Source of the DNA: Acidobacteriota bacterium
Lineage (GTDB): Bacteria; Acidobacteriota; UBA4820; DSQY01
Assembly: GCA_021787565.1 (NCBI GenBank)
Contig: JAJYLT010000022.1
Location: 1-60,196 of the forward strand
DNA length: 60,196 nucleotides
Direction of reading: 5' to 3'
Notes under the pieces: model-generated
The model's database searches: none
What the model was told of the DNA's origin: nothing
Seen by the model: only the letters and a program-made list of their open reading frames with translations
Position numbers and translations under genes: made by a program
Part shown: piece after piece, positions 19,936-55,246 of the stretch
Layout: each line of letters begins with the position of its first letter
Numbering within the stretch: the stretch's first letter is position 1

Positions 19936-20726
19936 AATATGGGGACACAATTAAAATATGGGGACACAATACTAATATCTTGACGAAGTGATTCGAAAGG
20001 CCATAAGATGGGGCCATGGCTAGGATCGCTCGGGTGGTGGCGCAGGGATATCCGCACCATGTGACGCAGCGGGGGAACCGGAGGCAGCGGGTCTTCTTCA
20101 ACGATGAGGACTACCAGGCGTACCTGGATCTGCTGTCTGAATGGTGCCTGCACGAGGGGGTCGAGGTATGGGCGTACTGCCTCATGCCTAATCACGTCCA
20201 TCTCATGGTGGTGCCGCACAGTCCGGAGGGGCTGGCGGGGGCCATCGGAGAGACGCACCGGAGGTACACGCGCCGGGTCAATTTCCGTGAGCAATGGCGG
20301 GGCTATCTGTGGCAGGGCCGGTTCGCATCCTTTCCGATGGAGGGGCCCTACGCGGTGGCCTGTGCGCGGTACATCGAGCTGAACCCGGTTCGGGCGGGTC
20401 TGGTGAAGAAGCCCGAGGCATGGCGCTGGAGCAGCTCTGGCGCGCACCTGAGAGGGGAGTATGGTGCGATCATCCGATCGCCAAAGCCCCTCGGGAGCCC
20501 TCAGGAGTGGGCTTCTCTTCTGAAGGGCGGTCTGGCAGAGGCGGAAGCCGAGGCGATCCGCCGCTGCGAGAGGACAGGTCGCCCGCTGGGCTCGGATCGA
20601 TTCATCGAGAGGCTCGAAGGACGGCTCGGCCGCACCCTCAAGCCGCAGAAACCCGGAAGGAAGAAGAAGGGAGAGGAGCAATAGGTATTGTGTCAGCAGG
20701 AGTAGTCTAATAGGTATTGTGTCCCC
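19932..20726 (+). mobile_element. REP/RAYT transposase unit with paired flanking repeats
   Basis: Left side: two adjacent 19-bp copies of TTAAAATATGGGGACACAA (19932-19950 and 19951-19969). Right side: two copies of AATAGGTATTGTGTC (20680-20694 and 20709-20723), the outer one extended to GTGTCCCC. Left GGGGACACAATAC is the inverse of right GTATTGTGTCCCC (with one extra base nearby), so the ends are inverted. The only gene between them is a Y1 transposase. The left boundary coincides with the stop codon of the upstream peptidase gene. Confidence 0.8.
20016..20684 (+). CDS. REP-associated tyrosine transposase (Y1/RAYT family)
   Basis: A 222-residue HUH-type single-strand DNA transposase. It shows QGYPHHVTQRGNRRQRVF near the N-terminus, the HUH motif in LMPNHVHLMV (about residue 66), and ARYIELNPVRAGLV with the catalytic Tyr near residue 123. 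WQGRFASFPM is also family-typical. The C-terminal basic region fits RAYTs. Such enzymes mobilise short palindromic REP sequences; here the flanking GGGGACACAAT repeats are its probable substrate. The motifs are intact, so it may be active. The last bases run into the right-hand repeat. Confidence 0.93.
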   Translation: MARIARVVAQGYPHHVTQRGNRRQRVFFNDEDYQAYLDLLSEWCLHEGVEVWAYCLMPNHVHLMVVPHSPEGLAGAIGETHRRYTRRVNFREQWRGYLWQGRFASFPMEGPYAVACARYIELNPVRAGLVKKPEAWRWSSSGAHLRGEYGAIIRSPKPLGSPQEWASLLKGGLAEAEAEAIRRCERTGRPLGSDRFIERLEGRLGRTLKPQKPGRKKKGEEQ

Positions 20727-33423: not shown

Positions 33424-34731
33424 ATGGGACACCTCGCGGGGAAGGACGTTTTTCGCAGGGTCGGAAAGAAGATCGACAGCCTCGGCGTGCGGGTCCATTG
33501 GAACGAGGCCCTGCACCGCATCGTGAAAGAGATCTTCTCGGAGGCGGAGGCGGACCTCTACATCCGGATGCCCTACGGCCTCTCGCCCCTGGACCGGCTG
33601 GAGCGCGTCACCGGCATCGAGCCGGCCAGGCTCCGGACCATGCTGGAGGCCATGGCCGACAAGGGGCTGGTGATGGACCTCTGGGCCAAGGACACCAACT
33701 ACTACATGCCCAGCCCGCTCTTTGTCGGCCTCTTCGAGTTCACCATGATGCGCACCGACCCCGGCGCCAACCCGGCCCTTATGGCCAGGCTCTTCCACGA
33801 GTACCTGGACGACGGCCTCGTCTATCGGAGGAACGCCGGCGACGGCGCCTCGGTCGGCCCCCTGCGTGCCCTCCCGCACGAGGGGACCGTCCAGGACGGC
33901 GTGGAGGTCCTCGACTACGAGAAGGCCACCGCCCTCATCGGCGCCGCCAGCCGTTTCTCCATAGGCCTGTGCTCCTGCCGGCACCAGAAGGAGCACCTGG
34001 GAGAGCGCCAGTGCCCGGACCCGCTGGAGATGTGCACGAGCATGGACACGGGGGCCGACTTCCTTGTCCGCCACGGGATGGCGAGGGAGATAACGAGGGG
34101 CGAGATGCTCGACCACCTCGCCCGGTCGCGCGAGCGCGGCCTCGTGCTGTGCGCCGACAACGTGCGGGCGAAGGTCAGCTTCATCTGCAACTGCTGCCCC
34201 TGCTGCTGCGAGGTCATGCAGGGCATCAGCCGCTTCGGCTATCCCCACGTCGTCGTCACCTCGAGCTTCATCGCCCGATCGGACGCGGCGGCGTGCAGCG
34301 GGTGCGCCAAGTGCGCCAAGGCCTGCCCCATCCAGGCCATCACCATGAGGCCGGTCCCCGCTGCGGCCGAGGGCAAGAAGAAGCAGGAGCCGGTCGTGGA
34401 CACCGCCCTCTGCATGGGATGCGGCGTGTGCGCGCTGGACTGCTCGACGGGCGCCATGAGGCTCGAGAAGCGCGGGCGCCGCGTGATCCATCCCGAGACG
34501 ACCTTCGAGCGGGTCGTGTTGCAGTGCCTCGACCACGGGACCCTTCAGAACCTCATCTTCGACGACCCCGGCAGCCTCAGCCAGGAGGCCATGCGCGCCA
34601 TCCTTGGCGCCTTTCTCGCCCTCCCTCCCGTCAAGAAGGGGCTCATGAGCGACGTGCTCCGCTCCCGCTTCCTCGGCGCCATGAAGAGCGCCGTGGCGCG
34701 CCAGGGCAAGGCGGACCTGCTCGATCTCTAA
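33424..34731 (+). CDS. Cys-rich 4Fe-4S dicluster protein
   Basis: A 435-residue cytosolic protein. Residues about 1-110 look like a winged-helix/helical region (LDRLERVTGIEPARLRTMLEAMADKGLV). The middle has unusual cysteine groups, GLCSCRH...QC (about 180-197) and FICNCCPCCCEV (about 256-267). Then come two ferredoxin sites, CSGCAKCAKACP (about 291) and CMGCGVCALDCS (about 330; the fourth Cys is followed by Ser, not Pro). Such proteins are usually redox or electron-transfer partners of anaerobic enzymes. The last about 30 codons have a second, degraded copy at 36830-36925. Confidence 0.85.
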   Translation: MGHLAGKDVFRRVGKKIDSLGVRVHWNEALHRIVKEIFSEAEADLYIRMPYGLSPLDRLERVTGIEPARLRTMLEAMADKGLVMDLWAKDTNYYMPSPLFVGLFEFTMMRTDPGANPALMARLFHEYLDDGLVYRRNAGDGASVGPLRALPHEGTVQDGVEVLDYEKATALIGAASRFSIGLCSCRHQKEHLGERQCPDPLEMCTSMDTGADFLVRHGMAREITRGEMLDHLARSRERGLVLCADNVRAKVSFICNCCPCCCEVMQGISRFGYPHVVVTSSFIARSDAAACSGCAKCAKACPIQAITMRPVPAAAEGKKKQEPVVDTALCMGCGVCALDCSTGAMRLEKRGRRVIHPETTFERVVLQCLDHGTLQNLIFDDPGSLSQEAMRAILGAFLALPPVKKGLMSDVLRSRFLGAMKSAVARQGKADLLDL

Positions 34732-34779: not shown

Positions 34780-35037
34780 TCGCTGTCGGACCGAATGAAC
34801 CGGAGGACGGTTCGGGAGAGGGCAAAGTGGGCAGAACCGGCAAAGCAGCACCGCTCCTCAGCGGTTCAGCCCGCCCACAGCCTGGGCGGACAGGCGCCCC
34901 GCCTGTCTGCCTCCGAAGGTCCCCATCCACCCATAGCCGCCGGTGCTCCCATCGGCCGATCCCCTCAAGCGGATGGACCCGCCGACTGGACGCCGTGCCC
35001 CAGGACTCTCACGCGGCCCGATTAGCGAAATGTGGCA
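34780..35037 (+). repeat. ~260-bp duplicated segment, copy 1
   Basis: Starts near CGGACCGAATGAA and runs to GATTAGCGAAATGTGGCA; its partner is 36531-36791. The copies are diverged but share long blocks (CTCAGC-GTTCAG, ACAGGCGCCCCGCCTGTC, CGAAGGTCCCCATCC, CGGCCGATCCCCTCAAGCGG). It is not coding. Confidence 0.8.
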
Positions 35038-35105
35038 TGTCAAGACCTGACCCCCGCTCTTGGATTAGCGAAATGTGGCATGTCAAGACCTGACCCCCGC
35101 TCTTG
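35020..35105 (+). repeat. Two tandem 43-bp units
   Basis: Two exact copies (35020-35062, 35063-35105) of a 43-base unit beginning GATTAGCGAAATG, containing TGTCAAGACCTGACCCC and ending CGCTCTTG. Part of the unit appears once at 36774-36791. The pattern resembles REP-type intergenic repeats. Confidence 0.85.
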
Positions 35106-35205
35106 CGCTCTTGGACCCCCGCTCTTGCGAAAGGGGATGGGCCCCTCTCGCCACCCTGGCCAGGGGACAGGCGAGACCCAGACGAGAGGAATGGCCTCCC
35201 GCACG

Positions 35206-35222
35206 ACAATGTATTACATTGT
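35206..35222. promoter_or_regulatory. Palindromic operator of the RHH toxin-antitoxin operon
   Basis: ACAATGTATTACATTGT is a perfect 17-base palindrome 21 bases before the antitoxin ATG. Palindromes of this kind are bound by ribbon-helix-helix antitoxins for autorepression. Confidence 0.7.
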
Positions 35223-35243
35223 GCTTGGAAGGAGTCTTCTGCC

Positions 35244-35510
35244 ATGCCCGAGACCGTGATCTTCAGCCTCCGCCTCCCGAAGCCCGTGAAAGAGAGCCTT
35301 GCGCGCCTAGCCCTGGCCACGGATCGGACTCAGACGTACCTCTGCACTCAAGCCATCGAGGAATACCTGGCGGCCCAGGCGTGGCAGGTGCAGGCCATCG
35401 AGGCGGCTGTTCGCAAGGCCGACTCCCCCGAGGCGCGCTTCATTCCGCATGAGGAGGTGGCGGCTCACATCCGCCGCCTCGCCGCGCAGACGAAGAAGGC
35501 GCGGGGGTGA
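35244..35510 (+). CDS. Ribbon-helix-helix antitoxin (CopG/ParD/RelB-like)
   Basis: An 88-residue protein. The N-terminal strand and helices VIFSLRLPKPVKESLARLALATDRTQTYLCTQAIEEYL match the RHH DNA-binding fold. The C-terminal basic/amphipathic tail would bind the toxin. The ATG at 35244 follows GGAAGGAG. A palindrome at 35206-35222 is the likely operator. Its stop overlaps the toxin GTG by four bases. First of four genes linked by 4-base overlaps. Confidence 0.85.
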   Translation: MPETVIFSLRLPKPVKESLARLALATDRTQTYLCTQAIEEYLAAQAWQVQAIEAAVRKADSPEARFIPHEEVAAHIRRLAAQTKKARG

Positions 35511-35815
35511 GGGTTCTTTGGGGGGAGGGGGCCCTGAACGACTTGGCGGAAATCGTCGAGTATATCGGTCAGGACAACCCGGACGCCGCCGCCGAAACCG
35601 CGGAGCGCATTCTGACGGTCGTCGGCCAGCTGGCCGACGCGCCGGCACTGGGCCGGCCAGGGCGGGTGCCCAAAACGCGCGAACTGATCGTGGCCGGTAC
35701 TCCCTACCTCGTTCCCTACCGAGTTAAGCGGGGAGACGTTCAGATCTTGCGGGTCTTCCACACCGCCCAGCGCACCCCTTTGCGGTGGGAGGGGAGGCCT
35801 TCGAGGAAACGATGA
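35507..35815 (+). CDS. RelE/ParE-family toxin
   Basis: A 102-residue ParE/RelE-fold protein (VLWGEGALNDLAEIVEYIGQDNPDAAAETAERI, then LGRPGRVPKTREL and TPYLVPYRVKRGDVQILRVFHTAQ). ParE members poison gyrase, RelE members cut mRNA at the ribosome; the tail HTAQRTP is closer to ParE, but this is not decisive. The GTG start overlaps the antitoxin stop (GTGA); the stop overlaps the ATG of the zinc-ribbon gene (ATGA). The fold looks complete. Confidence 0.87.
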   Translation: MRVLWGEGALNDLAEIVEYIGQDNPDAAAETAERILTVVGQLADAPALGRPGRVPKTRELIVAGTPYLVPYRVKRGDVQILRVFHTAQRTPLRWEGRPSRKR

Positions 35816-36488: not shown

Positions 36489-36530
36489 GCGCCCCCGCGA
36501 GACATCGGGGCGGCAGCCGGCCCTCAGGCT

Positions 36531-36791
36531 ATCGCCGTCGGACCGAATGAATTGGAAAACGGCTCGGGAGATCGGTGGGGTGGGAAGAACCGGTGAAGCG
36601 GCGCCGCTCCTCAGCCGTTCAGGCCCTCCCAGAGCCGGGAGGGACAGGCGCCCCGCCTGTCCGCCGCCGAAGGTCCCCATCCGCCCCTAGCCGCCAAGGC
36701 CCCCACCGGCCGATCCCCTCAAGCGGGTGGACCCGCGGACCGGACTGCATGTCCCTGGAATCGCACGCGGCGGGATTAGCGAAATGTGGCA
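36531..36791 (+). repeat. ~260-bp duplicated segment, copy 2
   Basis: Partner of 34780-35037, with scattered substitutions and small gaps. Together they bracket the toxin-antitoxin operon. Confidence 0.8.
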
Positions 36792-36829
36792 ATGAAAGAC
36801 CCCCTTGTCCTCGTGACCCCATTGTCCTC

Positions 36830-36925
36830 GCTCCGCTCCCGCTTCCTCGGCGACATGAAGAGCGCCGTGGCGCGCCAGGGCAAGGCGGACCTGCTCGAGC
36901 TCTAGCCGGCCGCGCGAACGGCCTT
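36830..36925 (+). repeat. 96-bp duplicated segment, copy 2 (fragment of Fe-S gene end)
   Basis: Nearly identical to 34656-34751; it is a broken tail of the Fe-S gene with no upstream gene attached. Its position after, not before, the 260-bp copy means the two blocks are in opposite order on the two sides of the island. Confidence 0.85.
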
Positions 36926-37099: not shown

Positions 37100-37128
37100 T
37101 TGCATCATGGTTATAAAGACACTACAAT
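37100..37128 (+). promoter_or_regulatory. Possible promoter of the sulfur cassette
   Basis: TTGCAT and TACAAT are 17 bases apart at the point where base composition changes to lower GC, about 200 bases before the first DsrE-like gene. The -35 match is poor. Confidence 0.33.
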
Positions 37129-37326
37129 AATGCTAGCAATACTTTTCAGTGTCTTGTGAGAAGCGCTTTTCTCGAAAGATGATTTTTATAAACCGTCGAT
37201 ATCGTTGGAAACGTAAGCCGGCGGAATCGAGAGTGCGAGAAAGAGGGCACCATTGCGCTTTTCAAGAAGGACGGGCAGAAGCGCGGTGTCGCAGGTGGGG
37301 TTGCGGCGGTATGACAAAAGGAGATC

Positions 37327-37881
37327 ATGATGAACAGGGGCAGTAATGTGTGGGCAATGATATTCGGACTCTCCATCTTCTTGCTGGCTGGGTTTCAATG
37401 TGTTTCCCGGTCTGCAACGGGTGGGGTAGAAGCGGAAAATACAAAGCCCCCATTGCAGATTGTCAACCATGCGGGGGTTCGGGTGGTCGCTCAAGTCAAT
37501 TATTCGGACACCATGCCAAACGGCATAAGCAAGCAGGTCATGGCCGTCAAAAACCTCTATGACCAATATACCGCCCTTGGCATGAAATCCGGGAAAAACT
37601 ACGAGATCATTATGGTCTTCAGGGCCGACGGCGCCCAGTATCTACTGACTGATGAGGCGTATGACCTCAAAGTTAAGCAGCCTCATCCCAAAGGCAACCC
37701 CAGCAGGGTATTGATTGAAGCCATGCACAGAGGCGGGGTAAAGATGTACGAGTGTCATGTGGCCATGGAATTTAAAGGCTATAAACCGGAAGATATTGTT
37801 CCCTTTAGCCGCATCGTGGTATCCGGCATCGGGGCCGTGGTTGATTTCGAAAAATCCGGCTACCTGGAAATAACCCCGTGA
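37327..37881 (+). CDS. Exported DsrE-family protein
   Basis: A 184-residue protein with an N-terminal signal region (WAMIFGLSIFLLAGFQC), whose Cys could be lipidated though Gln at -1 is not lipobox-like. The rest follows the DsrE/YchN fold: VNHAGVRVVAQVNYS, MVFRADGAQYLL, and the C-terminal GGVKMYECHVAME, VVSGIGAVVDFEKSGY. The Cys in MYECHVAM is in the place of the sulfur-carrying Cys of DsrE-like proteins. AAAGGAG precedes the ATG. First gene of the sulfur cassette; predicted periplasmic sulfur carrier. Confidence 0.75.
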   Translation: MMNRGSNVWAMIFGLSIFLLAGFQCVSRSATGGVEAENTKPPLQIVNHAGVRVVAQVNYSDTMPNGISKQVMAVKNLYDQYTALGMKSGKNYEIIMVFRADGAQYLLTDEAYDLKVKQPHPKGNPSRVLIEAMHRGGVKMYECHVAMEFKGYKPEDIVPFSRIVVSGIGAVVDFEKSGYLEITP

Positions 37882-37949
37882 AGGGACGGCAATTAAATGG
37901 TATGGTTGGCGACGGTAGGGCAGCTTCACTTTCAGAGGAGGAGCAATTC

Positions 37950-38765
37950 ATGAGCGGACAGAATAGTGTAATGATCCGCCGAACGGCGCTGAAAAATATT
38001 GTGTTGGGTATCGGCGGAGGTCTTGTGGTTGCTCAGGCAGGTCATCTGGCATGGGCGCGGGATGACGTGGAAAGCGCCCAGGCTGACCCGCTGCCTGCCG
38101 GGGCAGTTACGCTCAAGGATCTGCAAAAACGGCTTGAGAAAGCACCTAGGAGGAGGGACTTCAAGACCGTGCCAATGATTCTTACCGATCCCTTGCAGTG
38201 GGACCGGGAGGCATTAGGCGAGGTCATCCATTACGCCGGGGCCCCAAAACAGGTCTGGGATAATACCGATCTTGAGGGCCCATGGCTCAATCTGATGCGC
38301 AATGCGATGAACACCCAGATCTGGTCCTTCAAGCACCCGAATTTCTTGGCGGTCTCCGCTACGCATGGTGCCGCGCATTTGGCGCTCTACGACGATTACA
38401 TCTGGGATAAATACAAGATTGCCAAACTCACCAATGATAAATACAAAACAAACGTGTTCATCAAAGATGAGCTGCCAGGCCAGATCAACCCTGCGGATTT
38501 CGAAAACCAGAATGGCGCATTTTCCCCGCGTGGCGACAGCATCGCGGTCCTCCAAAAACGCGAGGCGGTCTTTTTGGCGTGCCACAACGCAATCTGGGAG
38601 TTCACACTGTCCCTCCATCAAAAGGGGGTTAATCCGGACCGCCGCAGCCACGCGGCAATGGCGGCGGAGTTCACCAACCACCTCATACCTGGGGTGGTGC
38701 TCACACCCGGTATCGTCGGTACCTTGCCAGAGCTTATGTTGGCTGGTTATCAGTATGCGAAATGA
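37950..38765 (+). CDS. Tat-exported DsrE-like protein
   Basis: A 271-residue protein with a twin-arginine signal (IRRTALKNIVLGIGGGLVV, cut near LAWA). The C-terminal half resembles an enlarged DsrE fold: REAVFLACHNAIWEFTLSL has a Cys in the carrier position, and LIPGVVLTPGIVGTLPELMLAGYQY is the closing DsrE-like segment. Tat export implies folding, and perhaps cofactor loading, in the cytosol. The ATG at 37950 has GAGGAGGAG before it. Assigning it to DsrE is pattern-based and less sure than for the first gene. Confidence 0.65.
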   Translation: MSGQNSVMIRRTALKNIVLGIGGGLVVAQAGHLAWARDDVESAQADPLPAGAVTLKDLQKRLEKAPRRRDFKTVPMILTDPLQWDREALGEVIHYAGAPKQVWDNTDLEGPWLNLMRNAMNTQIWSFKHPNFLAVSATHGAAHLALYDDYIWDKYKIAKLTNDKYKTNVFIKDELPGQINPADFENQNGAFSPRGDSIAVLQKREAVFLACHNAIWEFTLSLHQKGVNPDRRSHAAMAAEFTNHLIPGVVLTPGIVGTLPELMLAGYQYAK

Positions 38766-38781
38766 ACGCAAGGAGGTGCGA

Positions 38782-39753
38782 ATGCAAAAGGAAACGCATC
38801 ACCGCGTGGCGGCCCTGGCTGCTGCAAGCTTTCTTGCCCTATCGGGCGTGAATGCTCAGGCACAGAAGGAAATATTCCCGCCCTGGAGCCATGGCAAGAA
38901 CGCTCCGGCCATCGACAAGGGATTGGAGTTCACGGTCCCGGAAGTGGACAATCTGCCGGACTTCCACGGCAGCATCGAAAACCCCCAACTGGTCATCTTC
39001 GTGGGCGGCAATTACTTCTTCGCCATGGCCCCGCTGGTAGCGGCCTTTGAGAAGGACCACCCGGATCTCAAGGGCAGAATCTACTACGAAACCTTGCCCC
39101 CCGGCATCCTGATCAAACAGATGGAGGCCAAAGGCACGATCACCGTCGGCAACATGACCTGGACCGTCCATCCGGACGTCTATGCCGCTGGATTAAAAAC
39201 GGTGGACACGCTCATTCACAAGGGTATGCTGGCGGGTCCCGCGGTACGGTACGTCACCAATGACCTCGCCATAATGATCCCTAAGGATAACCCGGCCCAT
39301 ATCACAGGGCTTGCCGACCTGGGCAAGCCGGGTGTGCGGCTGGTCATGCCCAACCCGGAGTACGAGGGCGTGGCACGGCAGATCAAGATCTCCTTAGAGA
39401 AGGCCGGCGGGAAGGCTTTGGAGCAGACGGTTTACGACACCAAGGTAAAGAAGGGGGAGACGATCCTCACGCAGATCCATCACCGCCAGACACCCATCTA
39501 TCTGATGCTGGGCCGGGCAGATGCGGGTGTGACGTGGAAGTCAGAGGCCCTCTTCCAGGAGCAGGCGGGGCACCCCATCGGCCATATAGCGATTCCGTCC
39601 AAAGACAACACCACGGCTATCTACGCTGCGACGGCGGTCAAGGGTGCGGCCCATCCAAAGGCCGCCAGAGAGTGGCTGGACTTCCTGGCGTCGCCGAAGG
39701 CGCTGGACATCTTCAAACGCTATGGCTTCAAAGCCTACACCGGGGCACCATGA
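38782..39753 (+). CDS. Periplasmic solute-binding protein (type 2 fold, ModA-like)
   Basis: A 323-residue protein with a signal peptide (cut near VNAQA). It has a type 2 periplasmic-binding pattern: PQLVIFVGGNYFFAMAPLVAAFEKDHPDLKGRIYYE, RYVTNDLAIMIPKDNPAHI, ADLGKPGVRLVMPNPE, and the closing HPKAAREWLDFLASPKALDIFKRYGF. These resemble molybdate/tungstate/sulfate-binding proteins. AGGAGGTGCGA precedes the ATG. No ABC permease or ATPase is nearby, so it may serve as a periplasmic ligand binder for the sulfur enzymes rather than in import. Confidence 0.85.
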   Translation: MQKETHHRVAALAAASFLALSGVNAQAQKEIFPPWSHGKNAPAIDKGLEFTVPEVDNLPDFHGSIENPQLVIFVGGNYFFAMAPLVAAFEKDHPDLKGRIYYETLPPGILIKQMEAKGTITVGNMTWTVHPDVYAAGLKTVDTLIHKGMLAGPAVRYVTNDLAIMIPKDNPAHITGLADLGKPGVRLVMPNPEYEGVARQIKISLEKAGGKALEQTVYDTKVKKGETILTQIHHRQTPIYLMLGRADAGVTWKSEALFQEQAGHPIGHIAIPSKDNTTAIYAATAVKGAAHPKAAREWLDFLASPKALDIFKRYGFKAYTGAP

Positions 39754-39847
39754 GTATCGACCTCAATGGATGAGCCCTGAAGTGGCATCGGCATGGTGGT
39801 GCGCATTGGAGCGGAGTCTTGCGGCATAGGCAGGGGAGGGTAGGGCA

Positions 39848-40801
39848 ATGAAAGAACTCCTAGTCATCTTGAGAAAGCGGGGTTGGGTAATATCTCTAGT
39901 AATAGCGGGAATGGGCATCTGTCCCTGGTTTTGGGTCAAGACGAGGGCGGCGCAACCCACGGAGGTCGCGGTTGTTTACAATCCGCCTACCCCGGAGAGC
40001 GCTCCGGAAGACATAAAGGGGACGGTGATGCTCGGCTACAACATTGTCAAGGAGACAAGGAAGTATGCTGGGGACTATGTCGGAAACGCTCTCTCCTGCT
40101 CCAACTGCCACTTCGATGCGGGGATGACCCGGGGTGGTGAAAGCGGCGGCCTGTCCCTGGTGGGAGTTGGGGCCACCTATCCGGCGTACAAGAAGAGAGA
40201 ACGGTATGCGGTGGACCTGATGACCCGGACCAACGACTGCTTTGAGAGAAGCATGAACGGCAAGCCTTTGCCGGCGAGCGGCAAGGAGATGATCGCCATC
40301 CTCGCCTATTATCAATGGATCTCCAAGGGGCTGCCAATCTATGCCGAGATTCCTTGGCTCGGCTTGAAGGCCCTGAAGAGCAGCCACCAGCCCGACCAGG
40401 CTGAGGGGAAAAAGGTGTTTGCTCAACAATGCGCCGGGTGCCACGGAAGCAATGGCGAGGGAACGCCGGCCGCGCCACCCCAGTGGGGGCCGCAGTCGTT
40501 TAACGATGGCGCGGGCCTGGCCAAACTGGAAGTTTATGCCGCCTTTGTACACCTGAACATGCCGAGGGAGAAGCCCGATCTGTCGGATGCCCAGGCCCTT
40601 GATGTGGCCGCTTATGTCATTGCGCAACCCAGGCCGCATTTCACTGGGAAACCGGCTACCGTGGCTGGGGTGAGCTGGAAGGCTCCGGCCGGATCGGGAC
40701 TTGAGGAATGTCAGGCGCTTCCCCGCAAGCCTCCCATTCCTGAAGACAATCCCAATGACACCGGCGAAGGTAGAAGTGGGCAAACAGCGCTATTTCGATG
40801 A
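39848..40801 (+). CDS. tsdA: Diheme cytochrome c, TsdA-like thiosulfate dehydrogenase
   Basis: A 317-residue exported protein with an N-terminal hydrophobic segment and two c-type heme sites, CSNCH (about residue 81) and CAGCH (about 197). Between them is RTNDCFERSMNG: in TsdA enzymes the Cys of this motif is the unusual axial ligand of the active-site heme. TsdA oxidises thiosulfate to tetrathionate or does the reverse. The motif and gene context support TsdA; the neighbouring DsrE and binding proteins could change the substrate. It ends about 740 bases before the next gene. Confidence 0.84.
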   Translation: MKELLVILRKRGWVISLVIAGMGICPWFWVKTRAAQPTEVAVVYNPPTPESAPEDIKGTVMLGYNIVKETRKYAGDYVGNALSCSNCHFDAGMTRGGESGGLSLVGVGATYPAYKKRERYAVDLMTRTNDCFERSMNGKPLPASGKEMIAILAYYQWISKGLPIYAEIPWLGLKALKSSHQPDQAEGKKVFAQQCAGCHGSNGEGTPAAPPQWGPQSFNDGAGLAKLEVYAAFVHLNMPREKPDLSDAQALDVAAYVIAQPRPHFTGKPATVAGVSWKAPAGSGLEECQALPRKPPIPEDNPNDTGEGRSGQTALFR

Positions 40802-41540
40802 ACGCCTCTCTATCGAAGCGATCTGGAGGGATTGGTAGAGCCCTTGACCCGCGGGGAGATCCTGAACACCCTGGACCGCGGGGCCGTCAGCGCGTGATGT
40901 CAGGCCAAGAGGGCGCGCCGCGGATGACGCCGCGCCGGCCTTTGCGGTATCGTAGGGTCGCGGTTTCGTCCGAAGGGAGTCGCGCGATGAACTCGGCACC
41001 CACCCAGCCCCCAGCCCCCTTTTCCAAGGCCGAAGCGCCTCCCGCAGGGAGAAGCCCCGCGAACTGCTGTTTTGTTGTTCATCCCTCATTCCGCCTGTCC
41101 AAGAGAGACCGCCTTGTCGCCTCCTACCCCCGGCCGTGCCTAGGCCGCGCCGTTGGCTCGGCGCCGAGGACCTGGTCCGGGCGCGACCACGCAAGCGTGG
41201 CCGCGCTCCGGCCGCAGGCCCTCAGCCGCCCTTCGGGCGCCAGGCCCGGCCTCGTCAGGTACAAACCGTCCCCCCACCCTCCACGGGTGCGCCGGCGGCG
41301 ACGGACCTCCTGCTGCGTCAGCTTTCGGCGTCCGCATCCTCAGCGTACGTTCAGTACGCTTCCGGTGCGGCCGCCTCACCTTCCTTGCATGAGGCCCATC
41401 GGCGCCGGAACGCGCCTTCCTCCGCTTCGCTCCGGAAGGCAAATCACTCTAAGGAGTGCCGAGAATTTCTTGGGCAGTCGTGATCCCTCATCCTTCATCT
41501 ATCATCCATCATCCTTTTCTCTCTCTGCGGGAGCCGGCCG
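40802..41540. other. Non-coding region with hairpin and heptamer repeat
   Basis: About 740 bases without a credible gene. It holds the hairpin AGCGTAC-GTTCA-GTACGCT (41342-41360) set in a GC-rich block. Near the next gene is a 5-unit heptamer repeat (41481-41515). Frames across it read as Arg/Pro/Ser-rich nonsense. Confidence 0.5.
41481..41515. repeat. Heptamer short tandem repeat, 5 units
   Basis: Five units of TCATCCn (TGATCCC, TCATCCT, TCATCTA, TCATCCA, TCATCCT) in exact 7-nt phase, 25 bases before the start of the tetraheme fusion gene. Confidence 0.85.
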
Positions 41541-42833
41541 ATGAACTGGAAAGCCTTCTTCGCTTTCGTTGCGCTCGTGGTCCTCTTCGTGGCCGGCCTC
41601 GGCCTGCTCATGTTCGTGCGGCGCCCCTCGGCCATGACCTTCTTCTTCACGGCCGACACCCAGGGCTACCTGGTGCCGTGCGGGTGCAAGGTCATCCCCG
41701 CCGGCGGGCTGGCGCGGCGCGCGACGGTCCTGGATGGCCTCAGGAAGAGCGGTGACGGGGAGCGGGTCGTCCCCGTGGAGGTGACCCACGGCTTCGCGGA
41801 CCGGGGGCCGGGCCGCGCCCTCCTCAACGAGGAGATGGGGCGCTTCTTCGCGAGGGAGGGCTACCTCGTGGGGCTCGGTAGCTACGACCTCCTTCTGGGT
41901 CTCCCGGCCCTGCGCGCGGCGGCGCCCGGCGTGCCGCTCTACCTGGCGGGCGAGCCGGGCCTGGCCGGCTCGAAGGAGTTCCGCCTGGGCGGATGGGGGC
42001 TGGGCCCGTTCGGCGACAAGGGCGCCCGGCTCCGCGTGATCTTCCTGGCGGAAACCGCTCCCGGAGGCGTGTCCATCGGCGACCCGCTGAAGGCGCTTCG
42101 CGCCGAGATGGCCGCGCATCCCGCCGAGGGAACCATCGTGGTGGGCCAGCTCTCTCCCAAGTCGCTCAGCAGCGTCATGGAGATGCAGCCTGCCCCGCTC
42201 CTCGCGGTGGCCCAGTGGCAGACCGACGTGACGAGCATGCCGCAGGCCGTGGGCTCCCATTGGGTCCTCTACATGGGAGACCGGGGACGCCGGTCGGCCA
42301 CGGCGAGGGTCCGTTGGACGGGGAAGGAGTTCAACGTCCTGCCCACGATCCGCTACCTGGGCCCCGAAGTGGCCTCGGAGCCTTCGGTGAGCCGCGAGGT
42401 GGCGCAGGTGCTCGACCAGGTGGCGGCGGCCAACAAGGCGGCCCTGGCCAAGCTCTCCCGCCCGGCCGCCCCCGGCCGCGCCTACGTGGGCTCCGCCGGC
42501 TGCAAGACCTGCCACGCCGAGGCGCACAAGAGGTGGTCCCTCTCCAGCCACTCCAGGGCCACGGTGGACCTCGCCATCGACCACCAGCAGCAGAACCCCG
42601 CCTGCCTGAAGTGCCACGCCACCGCGCTGGGCGAGCCGGGCGGCTATCCCCAGGCCTCCGTGGACCTTTCGGGCGTGGGGTGCGAGGCCTGCCACGGCCC
42701 CGGCGAGGGCCACCCCGGCCGGGCCATGGAGATGCAGCCGGCCGGCCCCAAGGCCTGCGGAGCCTGCCACACGCCCCGCGATTCCCCCCTGTTCGACGCG
42801 GCGGGATACTGGAAGCTCATCGAGCACAAGTAA
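41541..42833 (+). CDS. Metallophosphatase-like domain fused to tetraheme cytochrome
   Basis: A 430-residue protein with an N-terminal signal/anchor helix. Residues about 30-290 begin FFFTADTQGYLVPCGC, like 5'-nucleotidase-type exported metallophosphatases (usually TNDLHGxLxPCGC), but several metal ligands seem to be missing. The C-terminal part carries four heme sites, CKTCH, CLKCH, CEACH and CGACH, with HSRATVD and CEACHGPGEGH typical of cytochrome c554-type proteins. It ends just after the fourth heme. Predicted periplasmic electron transfer; role of the N-terminal domain unclear. CGGGAGCCGGCCG precedes the ATG. Confidence 0.85.
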   Translation: MNWKAFFAFVALVVLFVAGLGLLMFVRRPSAMTFFFTADTQGYLVPCGCKVIPAGGLARRATVLDGLRKSGDGERVVPVEVTHGFADRGPGRALLNEEMGRFFAREGYLVGLGSYDLLLGLPALRAAAPGVPLYLAGEPGLAGSKEFRLGGWGLGPFGDKGARLRVIFLAETAPGGVSIGDPLKALRAEMAAHPAEGTIVVGQLSPKSLSSVMEMQPAPLLAVAQWQTDVTSMPQAVGSHWVLYMGDRGRRSATARVRWTGKEFNVLPTIRYLGPEVASEPSVSREVAQVLDQVAAANKAALAKLSRPAAPGRAYVGSAGCKTCHAEAHKRWSLSSHSRATVDLAIDHQQQNPACLKCHATALGEPGGYPQASVDLSGVGCEACHGPGEGHPGRAMEMQPAGPKACGACHTPRDSPLFDAAGYWKLIEHK

Positions 42834-50298: not shown

Positions 50299-50378
50299 GG
50301 ATGCCCGATTGGGTGGCCCCTCGTGGGAGGGGAACCGAACCGTGCGCCCCCGGAAGCCCCGGTCCATCGGAGGTTTTC

Positions 50379-51320
50379 GTGAGGCGCATTTGGCTTCTTA
50401 AGGCACCCATCTCCAGCTCCACGGCCGGCCGACGGTCGGTTCCGTCCGCCCGGTCTCGCCCCACCTCGCCGGCGGGGCTTCTCCTCCTCGCCGCCTTCGC
50501 GGTGCTCTCATGCACTTTCCTGGTGAGTTGCGGCGGCGGCCCCTCCGCCGCCCAGTCAGCCGTGCACGGCCGCTGGGTCAGCCTGTCGCCCAGCATGACG
50601 GAGGTCCTCTTCGCGGTGGGGGCCGGCCGGGAGGTGGCGGGTGTCTGCGCTCCTGCGAGCTACCCGCCCGAGGCGCGCGCGCTTCCCGCGGTGGCCTCCT
50701 GGGACCGTGTGGACGTGGAGGCGATTCTGTCCCTGCACCCGAAGACCTGCTTCACGGTGGAGGGGATGCAGAGCCCCGAGGTCCTGGCCACGCTGAGGCG
50801 GCTGGGCGTGCCGGTCCTGGTCTACCCCATGCGGAACCTGGAGGATCTCTGGCAGTGCATGATGGACGTGGGAAAGCGAACCGGCCACGGGAGGGAGGCC
50901 AGAGACCTGGTGCGCGTCCTTGAGTCGCGCGTGCGTGCTGCCTCCCCGGTGGGCGGTGAACCGAGACTGAGTGCCGTCGTCGTCGTGGGGCTGGATCCGC
51001 TGGTGGCCGCCGGGCGCGGTTCCTTTCTGGACGGGGTGCTTCAGGCGGCCGGGTACAAGAACGCCCTCGGCGCCGTGGCGGAGAGTTATCCGGCCCTCTC
51101 CGTGGAGCGGGTGGCCGCGGCGGAGCCGGCGGTCCTGATCATGCCCGAGGGAGAGATTCCCGCCGACCTCGGGAACGCCTTCGCGGCGCGGCTGCGAAAG
51201 CTGGAGGGCAAGCCCCTCCGCGAGATCTGGGTGCCGGCCGACCTCCTCGTGCGCCCGGGGCCGCGAACCGTGGAGGCCATTGAGGCGCTGGCCTCGGCCC
51301 GACGGGGAGTCACGCCGTGA
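50379..51320 (+). CDS. btuF: Vitamin B12 ABC transporter, periplasmic binding protein
   Basis: A 313-residue lipoprotein of the BtuF/FecB fold: hydrophobic N-terminal region with lipobox LVSC (about residue 50), then WVSLSPSMTEVLFAVGAGREVAGVC typical of the first lobe, PEVLATLRRLGVPVLV, and a second lobe ending LLVRPGPRTVEAIEALA. The GTG at 50379 follows CGGAGGTTTTC; the preceding frame lies in the riboswitch region and is not coding. Its stop overlaps btuC (GTGA). Specificity for B12 is inferred from the riboswitch and neighbours. Confidence 0.9.
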   Translation: MRRIWLLKAPISSSTAGRRSVPSARSRPTSPAGLLLLAAFAVLSCTFLVSCGGGPSAAQSAVHGRWVSLSPSMTEVLFAVGAGREVAGVCAPASYPPEARALPAVASWDRVDVEAILSLHPKTCFTVEGMQSPEVLATLRRLGVPVLVYPMRNLEDLWQCMMDVGKRTGHGREARDLVRVLESRVRAASPVGGEPRLSAVVVVGLDPLVAAGRGSFLDGVLQAAGYKNALGAVAESYPALSVERVAAAEPAVLIMPEGEIPADLGNAFAARLRKLEGKPLREIWVPADLLVRPGPRTVEAIEALASARRGVTP

Positions 51321-52279
51321 GGGCCCGCGAACGCTGGGCCCTGGGCCTGGCCGCCGCCTGCGCGGCGGGGACCTTCGCCGCGGCCATGACCCTGGGCCTG
51401 CCCGGGACGACCGGGGGTCTGGCCGCGCGGATCCTCTGGTCGGTCCGCCTGCCGGAGGCGCTCACGGCGCTCATCGTGGGAGGAGGGCTGGGGCTGTCCG
51501 GCCTCCTGTTCCAGCTCGTGCTCCGGAACCCGCTCGCGGACCCGTACGTGCTGGGGGTGGCGGGGGGATCGACCTTCGCCGCCGTAGCGGCGACGCTCTT
51601 CCTCGGCACGGCCGCCGCGGGCGGGGGCATGGCGCTGCGGGGCGCCGCCGCCCTCGTGGGGGGCCTGCTCACCCTGGCCGGGCTCATGAAGCTGGCCGGC
51701 GGCAAGCCGGAGACCCTCCTGCTGGGCGGCGTCGTGGCCAACACGGCCTTCGCGGCGGGCGCCCGGATGCTCACCGTATGGCTCTCGCCCGAGCAACTGG
51801 CCTACGTGACGACCTTCCTCGTCGGCTTCATCCCCACCCCGCCGGCGGCGATTCCGCTCCTGCTGGGCATTCCCTGCCTCTACACGCTGGCCCGGTTCAT
51901 GCCCAGGGGAAGGGGTCTGGACCTGCTGCTCCTCGCGGACGACGAGGCGCGCGCCACCGGGCTGGAGGTGGAGCGGGTGCGCCGCGAGGCCCTCCTGCTG
52001 GCCACCGTCCTGGCGGCCGCGGCGGTCACGCTGTGCGGCATGCTCGGCTTCGTGGGGCTCGTGGTGCCGCACCTGGCCCGCCTGACGGCCGGGCGCCGCC
52101 ACCGCGTCCTGGTGCCCGCCTCCTTCCTGCTGGGCGCGGCCTTCCTGCTGGCGGCACTCACCGCGGGCAAGCTCGTCGGAGGCTCCTGGCTGGCGCCGGT
52201 CGGCGTCTACACCAGCCTCGTGGGGGCTCCCGTCTTCCTGGTCCTGCTCGTCCGCTCCAGCCGGAGGGAGCTGCCGTGA
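51317..52279 (+). CDS. btuC: Vitamin B12 ABC transporter, permease
   Basis: A 320-residue FecCD-family permease with 8-10 membrane helices. Recognisable parts are RLPEALTALIVGGGLGLSGLLFQLVLRNPLADPYVLGV near the N-terminus and FVGLVVPHLARL near residue 245, which contacts the ATPase. The GTG start overlaps the btuF stop and the end overlaps btuD by four bases. It acts in the inner membrane with BtuD and BtuF. Confidence 0.94.
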   Translation: MRARERWALGLAAACAAGTFAAAMTLGLPGTTGGLAARILWSVRLPEALTALIVGGGLGLSGLLFQLVLRNPLADPYVLGVAGGSTFAAVAATLFLGTAAAGGGMALRGAAALVGGLLTLAGLMKLAGGKPETLLLGGVVANTAFAAGARMLTVWLSPEQLAYVTTFLVGFIPTPPAAIPLLLGIPCLYTLARFMPRGRGLDLLLLADDEARATGLEVERVRREALLLATVLAAAAVTLCGMLGFVGLVVPHLARLTAGRRHRVLVPASFLLGAAFLLAALTAGKLVGGSWLAPVGVYTSLVGAPVFLVLLVRSSRRELP

Positions 52280-53115
52280 TCGAGCTGAGAAGCGTCCACT
52301 TCGCCTACCCGGGAGCGCAGCGGCTGTTGAGGGGTGCCAACCTCGTGATCCGGCCCGGGGAAGTGGTGGCCCTGGCGGGTCCCAACGGGGCTGGAAAGAG
52401 CACCCTCCTGCGCATCGCGGCGGGTCTTCTGGCCCCCTCGGAGGGAGAGGCCCTCCTGGATGGACGGCCCGTCGAGAGCTGGTCGCGGGTCGCGAGGGCC
52501 AAGCAGCTCGCCTACGTGGCCCAGAGCCCCAAAACGCCGGAGGAGTGGCGGGTGAGCGAGATCGTGGAGCTGGGCGACTACCCGCACCGCGAGCAGCCCC
52601 CGGCACCGAGGCCGCTGGCCATCCGGCTGGAGGAGGTCCGGACGAGGCTCGGCCTGGCCACGGTCTGGGAGCGGCGGGCCGACAGCCTGAGCGGCGGCGA
52701 GGCTCAGAAGGTCTCCCTCGCGCGCGCCCTGGTTCAGGACACTCCGAACCTCGTGCTGGATGAGCCGGCGAGCCACCTGGACCTGGCCAACCAGATGGTC
52801 CTCTTCCGGAGCCTCTCCGAGCTGGCCACCCAGGGGCGGTCGGTCCTCCTGGCCACGCACGACGTGAACCTCTCGCGCCTCTTCGGGCAGAGGCTCGTCC
52901 TGCTGAACGGCGAGGGGATCGTGAAACCGATGCCGGAGGGGGCCGAAGAGCAGGGCCGGCTGTTGCGCCAGGCCTTCGGCGTCGCCTTCAGGCCCGTGGA
53001 GCTTTCGGGGACCCTCTGCTGGTTTCCCGATCCGCGTGGGGAGAACCCGGCGGAGGCGACGGCGTATTCAGGCGCGCGCGAGGACGGCGGGCCCAAGGGC
53101 CCCGGCGGACGATGA
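52276..53115 (+). CDS. btuD: Vitamin B12 ABC transporter, ATPase
   Basis: A 279-residue ABC ATPase. Walker A is GPNGAGKST, the Q-loop lies in YVAQSPKTP, the signature is LSGGEAQKVSLARAL, Walker B is NLVLDEPASHLD, and the switch His is in ATHDVNL. It powers BtuC. The GTG at 52276 overlaps the btuC stop. The last about 30 residues (GENPAEATAY onward) are low-complexity. The receptor gene follows after 121 bases and is probably under the same riboswitch. Confidence 0.94.
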   Translation: MIELRSVHFAYPGAQRLLRGANLVIRPGEVVALAGPNGAGKSTLLRIAAGLLAPSEGEALLDGRPVESWSRVARAKQLAYVAQSPKTPEEWRVSEIVELGDYPHREQPPAPRPLAIRLEEVRTRLGLATVWERRADSLSGGEAQKVSLARALVQDTPNLVLDEPASHLDLANQMVLFRSLSELATQGRSVLLATHDVNLSRLFGQRLVLLNGEGIVKPMPEGAEEQGRLLRQAFGVAFRPVELSGTLCWFPDPRGENPAEATAYSGAREDGGPKGPGGR

Positions 53116-53236
53116 CGACCAGATCGGGTCGGCGCGAGGATGTGCCTTGGTGTGGAAAGCGGCCCCCGGACGGGGCCAGTGGAAATGCGGACGGGGCCGG
53201 TCGCGGGCCGCGCCCTTTGATGATGGGAGACGAAGG

Positions 53237-55246
53237 ATGAGAGCCAGAATCATGGTGGCGTGCACCCTCCTCGCGGCGGCTATGGTCACCCCGGTGGCCG
53301 CCCAGGACGCGCAGAAGCTCCTGGAGAACTACGGCACGGTCGTCACCGTCTTCGGCGAGCGGATACCCGTGGAGGAGCGGCAGATTCTGAACACGGCGGC
53401 CGGCGTCACGGTGATCACGCGCGAGGCCATCCAGAAGATGGGGGCGACGACCGTCCAGCAGGTCCTGGAGAGCCTTCCGGGCGTGGTGCTGCACAACATC
53501 ACCGGCAATCCCGTGGAGAACAGCGCGGATCTGCGCGGCTTCCCCGACGGCGCGAGCATGGCCGTCTTCCTGGATGGCGTCCGGCTGAACGACATCCAGG
53601 ACAACAGCGTCCGCTGGGACCTCATCCCCATCGAGGACGTGGAGCGCATCGAGATCTACCCGGGCGCCTCCGGGCCCCTCTACGGCGGGGGCGCCCTGGC
53701 GGGCGTCGTGAACATCGTGACGAGGCGGGACCCGGGCATCCCGCGGCTGGACCTGAAGGGGGAGGCCGGCTCCTTCGGCCAGCGCGAGGCGAGGACCCAC
53801 GCCTCTGGCAGCTTCGGCCCCTGGGAGTTCTACGCCACGGCGACCCAGAGGCACGCCAAGGGCTGGCGCGAGAACGACGGCTACCGGCTGGACGACAGCC
53901 TGGTGCGCCTCAGCTACACCCCGGACCGTTCCAACCAGCTCGCCCTCCTCGTGAAATACTCCGGAGGGGCGATCAGCGATCCCGGCTCGCTGACGGCCCA
54001 GGAGATGGCGCGGAATCCCCGCCAGGACCCCTACAACCGCTACGACGGAACCCGCGGCCGGGAGTACCTGGCCAGCCTCCGCTACGCCTTCACTCCCGCC
54101 AGCGGCTGGGCCTTCTCGGCCCAGGCCTACGGCCGTCGCCAGGACCGCGACACCCTCACCACGGGCCGCTATGGCTCGGGCTTTCTCGGATCGGACCGGG
54201 AGGACCTCCAGGGCCTCCTGGCCGACGCGAACCGCACCTGGAAGCGGGGGCCTTGGACATTTGCCGCCTCGGGCGGCGCCGACCTCTCCTCGGGGACGGT
54301 GAGCGCCGACGGCTTCTACACCGACATTTACGGGCAGAACAAGCGTCCGGCGAGCCGGAGCGATCTCAGGCAGCACAACTCGGGCGCCTATCTCCAGGGC
54401 GACCTGGGCTGGGGTGAACTGCACCTCGTGGCGGGCGCGAGGACCGACCGCAGCGCCTACGGCTATTCGGACCTCTTCAGCGCCCGAAACGACCAGGAGC
54501 GGGTCTTCAGGGAGTCCACGTGGCGCTCCGGCCTGCTCTGGCACACGGGGCCGTGGTCCTCCCTCTTCCTGACTTACTCGGAGGGTTACCGCATCCCGTC
54601 CGTGGTGGAACTCTTCGCCTACCCGGGCTTCTACTCCAATCCCGACCTGCGCTCGACACGGGCCGGCGATTGGGAGGGGGGATGGCGCTACCTCAAGGAG
54701 GGATGGCGCTTCAGCGTGACGGGCTTCCGCATGCAGATGACCGACGAGGTGGTCTACGTGCTCACCCATCCCAAGCTCTTCATCGGCGAGAACATGAACG
54801 TGGGGCGCTCCAGCCGCAAGGGCGTCGAGGCGGAGGCGCACGTCCCCCTGCCGGCGGGCTTCGCCTTCCACCTCACGGGCTCCTACCAGGAGAGCGAGGT
54901 GACGGCCGGGCCCTACGCGGGACACCGCCTGCCCATGGTGCCCAGGGGCTCGGGTTCGGCGGGGCTCTCCTGGTCCAATCCGGATCTGAGCGTGGAGCTC
55001 TACGGCCACTGGGTCGGCCCCCAGCCGCTGGACAACGACCTCCTCAACCAGCAGCCCGACCTGCCGGGCTACTCCACGCTGGACCTGAGCGTGCGCTACG
55101 CGTACCGCGCCATGACGGTGCAGGGGACGGTCACGAACCTCCTCGACCGGCGCTTCGCCTCCCGCGGGATCACCAACGGCATCACGGACTACTTCACCCC
55201 GGCCTATCCTCAAGCGGTGCGGCTCTCGTTCATGTGGAGCTTCTAG
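53237..55246 (+). CDS. btuB: TonB-dependent receptor, BtuB-like
   Basis: A 669-residue outer membrane receptor. It has a signal peptide (cut near PVAAQ), a plug domain with GVTVITREAIQKMGATTVQQVLE, LRGFPDG, VFLDGVRLND and the GPLYGGGALAGVVNIVT closing motif, then a 22-strand-type barrel ending in the aromatic FMWSF. A TonB-box-like GTVVTVFGE lies near the mature N-terminus. Location right after btuFCD and the cobalamin riboswitch points to corrinoid import. Energy would come from TonB/ExbBD, not found here unless the kinase-TonB fusion takes part. Confidence 0.9.
   Translation: MRARIMVACTLLAAAMVTPVAAQDAQKLLENYGTVVTVFGERIPVEERQILNTAAGVTVITREAIQKMGATTVQQVLESLPGVVLHNITGNPVENSADLRGFPDGASMAVFLDGVRLNDIQDNSVRWDLIPIEDVERIEIYPGASGPLYGGGALAGVVNIVTRRDPGIPRLDLKGEAGSFGQREARTHASGSFGPWEFYATATQRHAKGWRENDGYRLDDSLVRLSYTPDRSNQLALLVKYSGGAISDPGSLTAQEMARNPRQDPYNRYDGTRGREYLASLRYAFTPASGWAFSAQAYGRRQDRDTLTTGRYGSGFLGSDREDLQGLLADANRTWKRGPWTFAASGGADLSSGTVSADGFYTDIYGQNKRPASRSDLRQHNSGAYLQGDLGWGELHLVAGARTDRSAYGYSDLFSARNDQERVFRESTWRSGLLWHTGPWSSLFLTYSEGYRIPSVVELFAYPGFYSNPDLRSTRAGDWEGGWRYLKEGWRFSVTGFRMQMTDEVVYVLTHPKLFIGENMNVGRSSRKGVEAEAHVPLPAGFAFHLTGSYQESEVTAGPYAGHRLPMVPRGSGSAGLSWSNPDLSVELYGHWVGPQPLDNDLLNQQPDLPGYSTLDLSVRYAYRAMTVQGTVTNLLDRRFASRGITNGITDYFTPAYPQAVRLSFMWSF

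Follow-up and report, generated by a model that had tools for sequence, protein, structure and literature searches.

Laterally acquired genes for two kinds of putative thiosulfate dehydrogenase, a periplasmic binding protein and an exported DsrE-fold protein in a genome of the Acidobacteriota

A contig of 60,196 nucleotides (hereafter the window) from a metagenome-assembled genome (MAG) of the Acidobacteriota (assembly GCA_021787565.1, contig JAJYLT010000022.1) carries a cassette of four genes in which two kinds of predicted thiosulfate dehydrogenase stand together with a periplasmic binding protein. The cassette occupies positions 37327–40801 of the forward strand, and each gene has an AGGAG/GGAGG-like ribosome-binding sequence upstream. 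The first gene encodes P0001, an exported DsrE-fold protein of 184 amino acids (37327–37881). It is followed by the genes for P0004, a Tat-exported thiosulfate dehydrogenase (TSD) of the AFE_0042 kind with 271 amino acids (37950–38765), for P0002, a ModA-like periplasmic binding protein (SBP) of 323 amino acids (38782–39753), and for P0003, a TsdA-type diheme cytochrome c of 317 amino acids (39848–40801). Only 16 bases separate tsd from sbp (38765 to 38782). A preliminary description of the locus had predicted four genes on one strand, and all four open reading frames (ORFs) indeed exist on the forward strand.

P0001 and P0004 had both been taken for exported DsrE-like proteins. Structure prediction and alignment recovered the DsrE fold and a conserved cysteine in each of them (Cys143 and Cys211, respectively, both invariant), but the family of the Tat-exported protein is a different one: P0004 scores 382.6 bits against the NCBIfam thiosulfate dehydrogenase model NF052225 (equivalog cut-off 300), covering positions 1–259 of the 259-position profile, and nothing in Pfam exceeds a cut-off. 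The earlier view of P0004 as a DsrE-like carrier needs correction on this point; since the protein belongs to a kind of thiosulfate dehydrogenase that has already been characterized (AFE_0042), its family membership makes an enzyme more likely than a mere carrier. A Tat-like leader is found at its start (IRRTALKN; the RRTALK motif was judged by eye). Among 48 aligned TSDs of public genomes no cysteine other than Cys211 is invariant, and in the AlphaFold model it is placed at the end of a strand, just before a helix, of a DsrE-like fold. This model has a mean pLDDT of 81.6, with values above 90 across most of residues 50–170 and 200–270, and of the five models computed, the remaining four had means of 61–78. 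Its top solved Foldseek matches all belong to the DsrE family (1l1s, 2pd2, and 3pnx; probability 0.96–1.00), which taken alone is suggestive of a DsrE fold for P0004 and not decisive. A hidden Markov model built from DsrE proteins without any TSD also matched about 20 TSDs (E-values of 1e-3 to 5e-6), mostly in the C-terminal stretch that holds the cysteine. RefSeq lists TSDs (L136, L137, L138, L140, and the plasmid matches) as 'transcriptional initiation protein Tat' or 'hypothetical protein', and all of the misnamed proteins tested exceed the NF052225 cut-off. Because several carry the former name, TSD has probably gone unnoticed in many bacteria of soils and plants.

P0002 matches SBP_bac_11 with 175.8 bits and thereby shares the periplasmic binding-protein family of ModA and the sulfate-binding proteins of ABC transporters. 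Against the NCBIfam model modA, however, it scores only 43.9 bits, below the cut-off of 62.5, and ModB and ModC do not adjoin it. Consistent with the earlier view of a ModA-like protein without a transporter, no permease or ATPase genes are present beside it among the ORFs at 37–41 kb. The assignment of P0003 to the TsdA-like diheme cytochromes with a cysteine heme ligand was likewise confirmed. Residues 47–267 match the solved TsdA of Allochromatium vinosum (4wqc/4v2k; E-value 1.6e-43), the SoxA-TsdA_cyt-c Pfam domain is recognized with 49.7 bits, and two CxxCH motifs provide two c-type heme sites. The cysteine heme-1 ligand motif DCFERSMNGK aligns to DCFERSLNG of the A. vinosum protein. The heme-2 site reads HLNMP and aligns to the NMP/KMP site of the A. 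vinosum TsdA chains, in which Met is the ligand; the Asn preceding this Met in P0003 resembles TsdA of Campylobacter jejuni (CjTsdA; N254/M255) and differs from A. vinosum, which has Lys there (PMC5146829).

Recurrence of the unit was assessed in 79 public TSD loci, with a neighborhood of −5 to +6 kb around each tsd gene; these loci represent best matches in which relatives of the window's TSD are over-represented, and some contigs end early. An SBP gene is located near tsd in 52 of them, nearly always directly downstream, and is absent from the other 27. A TsdA-type cytochrome accompanies TSD and SBP in 25 loci and DoxD does so in 12, but no locus contains both. In Methylorubrum thiocyanatum (locus L059) the arrangement is tsd-sbp-tsdBA. 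The hypergeometric probability of zero overlap would be 8e-5 if the loci were independent, which owing to kinship they are not. On the TSD tree the outlet label (TsdA or DoxD) changes eight times by parsimony, and at least three of these changes are forced by the starred branches. Among 31 TsdA-type cytochromes from the loci, including that of the window, the strict cysteine-ligand motif is conserved in 24 and the NMP heme-2 site in 29; a few loci carry the TsdA gene upstream or in the opposite orientation. The expectation that the genes co-occur elsewhere therefore holds for the SBP, the Tat-exported protein and the TsdA-type cytochrome (25 of 79 loci), but not for the exported DsrE protein, which appears only occasionally. 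Two MAGs related through their TSDs encode a fusion of a diheme peroxidase-like and a TsdA-like domain (L002:2068–4110 and L163:4566–6518).

Several arrangements are found on plasmids. A Methylobacterium radiotolerans plasmid has the order TSD-SBP-LysR-diheme cytochrome-TsdA-oxidase subunits, a Paraburkholderia fungorum plasmid DsbC-DsrE-TlpA-SBP2-TSD-SBP-diheme cytochrome-TsdA, and a conjugative Gluconobacter plasmid TSD-SBP-DoxD. TSD is missing from the sets of a Komagataeibacter plasmid (exported DsrE-SBP-SBP2-diheme cytochrome-TsdA-oxidase genes) and a Hymenobacter plasmid (TsdA-DsrE-SBP-SBP2), and on the P. fungorum plasmid pBIL a DsrE gene lies directly 5′ of an SBP gene. In some plasmid sets a plain exported DsrE protein thus occupies the place of TSD, which fits a common fold of the two.

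The plain DsrE protein of the window, P0001, scores 26.9 bits against Pfam DsrE (gathering cut-off 22.7) and begins with a signal-like stretch. Its AlphaFold model, with a pLDDT of only 65, adopts the DsrE fold according to Foldseek matches to 2pd2, 1l1s, and 3mc3 (best 2pd2, E-value 2.5e-8), and Cys143 is invariant in all five aligned rows. No DsrEFH three-subunit set with dsr genes adjoins it among the ORFs of the window. A close copy was detected in a single one of the 79 TSD loci (L002, 79% identity), and another locus (L017) has two distant ones; a relative with 66% identity in a Sulfuriferula genome has no recognizable sulfur genes adjoining. No close relatives were found on plasmids at an E-value of 1e-5, where the DsrE proteins are related at the family level only. 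A viral origin was also considered, but no relative of P0001 was found in viral contigs. The exported DsrE protein is hence an occasional, not a regular, member of the cassette.

Taken together, we regard it as somewhat more probable than not that the cassette is a laterally acquired periplasmic unit for the oxidation of thiosulfate to tetrathionate, with a TSD-SBP core and with TsdA or DoxD as interchangeable electron outlet. The SBP would capture thiosulfate or tetrathionate and probably present the anion. Cys211 of TSD could then take up thiosulfate as Cys-S-thiosulfonate, from which a second thiosulfate would free tetrathionate. Such chemistry has precedents in the Cys-S-thiosulfonate that DsrE3A forms with tetrathionate before the thiosulfate is passed on (PMC4175335), and in the cysteinyl-thiosulfate intermediate proposed for TsdA (PMC9562282). 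The predicted DsrE fold with its one invariant cysteine offers a concrete thiosulfonate mechanism for TSD. The electrons would leave via the diheme TsdA for the pool of c-type cytochromes and an oxidase, and oxidase genes do follow the TsdA gene on the Methylobacterium and Komagataeibacter plasmids. TsdA might also catalyze this reaction by itself, at the cysteine that ligates its heme. In relatives with DoxD, this quinone-linked subunit would replace TsdA and the electrons would pass to quinone. P0001 may be an accessory carrier of thiosulfonate or persulfide, and a transfer of bound sulfur to TsdA, as suggested in the preliminary description, may also take place.

A number of observations weigh against this interpretation. 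The Foldseek matches of the P0004 model to DsrE folds have E-values of only 4e-3 to 4e-2. TSD and SBP occur without TsdA or DoxD nearby in 15 of the 79 loci, and the 27 loci lacking SBP comprise one with DoxD, one with TsdA and 25 with TSD alone, though some contigs end early. Furthermore, the four closest relatives of the window TSD (L001, L002, L003, and L019) have no stand-alone TsdA gene right beside TSD, although a TsdA with 64% identity is encoded next to oxidase-like genes on a different contig of the L001 genome.

In the main rival reading, TSD and TsdA would oxidize thiosulfate independently of each other, would stand together because they share this substrate but differ in the pH or concentration at which they act, and would hand over neither electrons nor sulfur. 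In other organisms either kind of enzyme works by itself (PMC6335251, PMC5146829); the TsdA of the window has a complete active site of its own, and many loci contain TSD with no TsdA-type gene near it. Yet the mutual exclusion of TsdA and DoxD beside TSD-SBP is better explained by alternative outlets than by redundancy, and the oxidase genes behind TsdA on some plasmids also speak against mere parallel enzymes, which we consider unlikely. Less probable still is a system devoted mainly to tetrathionate reduction, in which TsdA would act as reductase as in C. jejuni and TSD, SBP, and DsrE would manage the thiosulfate and thiosulfonates formed. The Asn in the HLNMP site of P0003, shared with CjTsdA and replaced by Lys in A. 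vinosum (PMC5146829), would agree with this direction. However, because 29 of the 31 TsdA-type proteins of the loci share the NMP site, including ones that precede terminal oxidases, this residue is no pointer to reduction here, and CjTsdA itself also oxidizes thiosulfate in vitro (PMC5146829). That the Tat-exported protein is a sulfur carrier with an over-extended NF052225 name, leaving TsdA as the sole enzyme, appears very improbable, since P0004 exceeds the equivalog cut-off over its full length and falls into a tree clade near the Acidithiobacillus TSDs, even though its fold is that of DsrE carriers and a plain exported DsrE stands directly 5′ of the same SBP in Komagataeibacter and on P. 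fungorum pBIL, and likewise in Hymenobacter.

The cassette was acquired laterally, as had been proposed together with its lower GC content and the repeat debris in front of it, and all three points were borne out. With a GC content of 56.1%, the segment 37101–40801 is the lowest 3.7-kb stretch of the window (others 60.0–72.2%, mean 67.5%), and the GC content at third codon positions (GC3) of its genes is 0.62–0.77 compared to 0.93–0.96 in the Fer4, C554, S41, and ffh genes. Two more lower-GC stretches (about 58–62%) exist on the contig at 20500–21500 and 26000–30500. The cassette is flanked on the left by the gene of a 4Fe-4S (Fer4) protein (33424–34731, forward strand) and on the right by that of a C554-type multiheme protein (41541–42833, forward strand). 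Proteins with 93 and 89% identity, respectively, are encoded on a single contig (C165) of the one congener (G001), with unrelated DNA between them. Because nucleotide similarity to this congener ends around 36911 in the repeat region and restarts at 40916, just past the TsdA stop codon, the insert spans roughly 36.9–40.9 kb within a variable spot. A 1975-amino acid protein of BNR/YCF48-like repeats replaces the sulfur cassette at the same spot in this congener (L180:2996–8920).

The repeat debris derives from the segment 34656–35105, which comprises the 3′ end of the Fer4 gene and the next spacer with a 43-bp tandem repeat, and which is duplicated piecewise at 36505–36925; this rearranged copy, whose pieces are 79–97% identical, adjoins the cassette on the left. 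An exact tandem of the 43-bp unit closes the duplicated segment (35020–35105). The repeat was also considered as a high-copy element, but its sole other long match in the genome covers 306 bases of a different contig. Between the repeat copies (35103–35815) a ribbon-helix-helix protein (weak RHH_1 match) and a ParE toxin-like gene (PF05016, 8.3e-17) are encoded, likely a toxin-antitoxin pair in the variable spot of the cassette.

An ancestral lineage trait was rejected: TSD was detected in none of the eight genus and family mates searched, and only one of 297 genomes of the phylum, the window's own, contains a protein above the TSD cut-off. A chimeric contig is unlikely in view of the syntenic flanks in G001, the restart of similarity at 40916, and a MAG contamination of 0.38%. 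In the TSD tree the window protein belongs to a fully supported set of five with MAGs labelled Bacteroidetes, Deltaproteobacteria, Nitrospirae, and Proteobacteria; these mixed labels fit a transfer, though labels and binning may err. The TSD gene is furthermore present on 24 plasmid records, seven of which are predicted to be conjugative. Elsewhere in the window, genes resembling a vitamin B12/siderophore uptake set (binding protein, permease, ATPase, and TonB-dependent receptor) are located at 50301–55246.

In a wider and distinctly more tentative reading, exported DsrE proteins and a dedicated ModA-like SBP might constitute a periplasmic module for thiosulfonates that contains no heme, has its catalytic form in TSD, connects to TsdA or DoxD as interchangeable outlets, and has spread partly by plasmids through lineages of at least Pseudomonadota, Bacteroidota, and Planctomycetota; the cassette of the window would then combine the plain and the catalytic DsrE form.

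The TSD of Acidithiobacillus ferrooxidans (AFE_0042) produces tetrathionate (PMC6335251), and its gene is followed by AFE_0043, annotated as a putative periplasmic solute-binding protein, and then by doxDA (PMC2754497). Because of this published tsd-sbp-doxDA arrangement (PMC6335251, PMC2754497) the TSD-SBP pair was already known, and the claim of a previously undescribed unit stands for the combination TSD-SBP-TsdA, for which we found no description in the full text of open papers (subscription papers lay outside the search). A review assigns AFE_0042-type TSD and TsdA to different bacteria, reports no TsdA in Acidithiobacillus, regards structure and mechanism of the Acidithiobacillus-type TSD as open, and notes that two natural-type acceptors were tried and that this enzyme did not reduce either of them (PMC6335251). 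New here are the joint presence of an SBP and both thiosulfate dehydrogenase kinds, the mutual exclusion of the two outlets, and the predicted DsrE fold of TSD. The occurrence of TSD-SBP with either TsdA or DoxD, never both, yields two candidate electron acceptors for TSD, and the two enzyme kinds side by side suggest where the less understood TSD sends its electrons. Like the window proteins, DsrE3A of the Metallosphaera cuprina DsrE3A-TusA system is a DsrE-family protein with a cysteine, in its case a reactive one that binds thiosulfate as Cys-S-thiosulfonate (PMC4175335); that system, however, is Hdr-linked and taken as cytoplasmic, whereas the window proteins bear signals for export and are associated with a cytochrome. 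P0003 shares the two CxxCH motifs, the cysteine-ligand motif, and the heme-2 Met with TsdA of A. vinosum and C. jejuni (and with TsdBA), but is accompanied by an AFE_0042-type TSD and an SBP, with no TsdB gene adjoining. The closest parallel in gene order is the A. ferrooxidans cluster (AFE_0042–0044), where sbp also directly follows tsd and TSD belongs to the same NCBIfam family, and the SBPs of Acidithiobacillus loci are 69–72% identical to that of the window. No DoxD (PF04173) match was obtained in the host genome, while three control genomes gave matches; compared with the A. ferrooxidans cluster, the window has a TsdA-type cytochrome in place of DoxDA and an exported DsrE protein in front.

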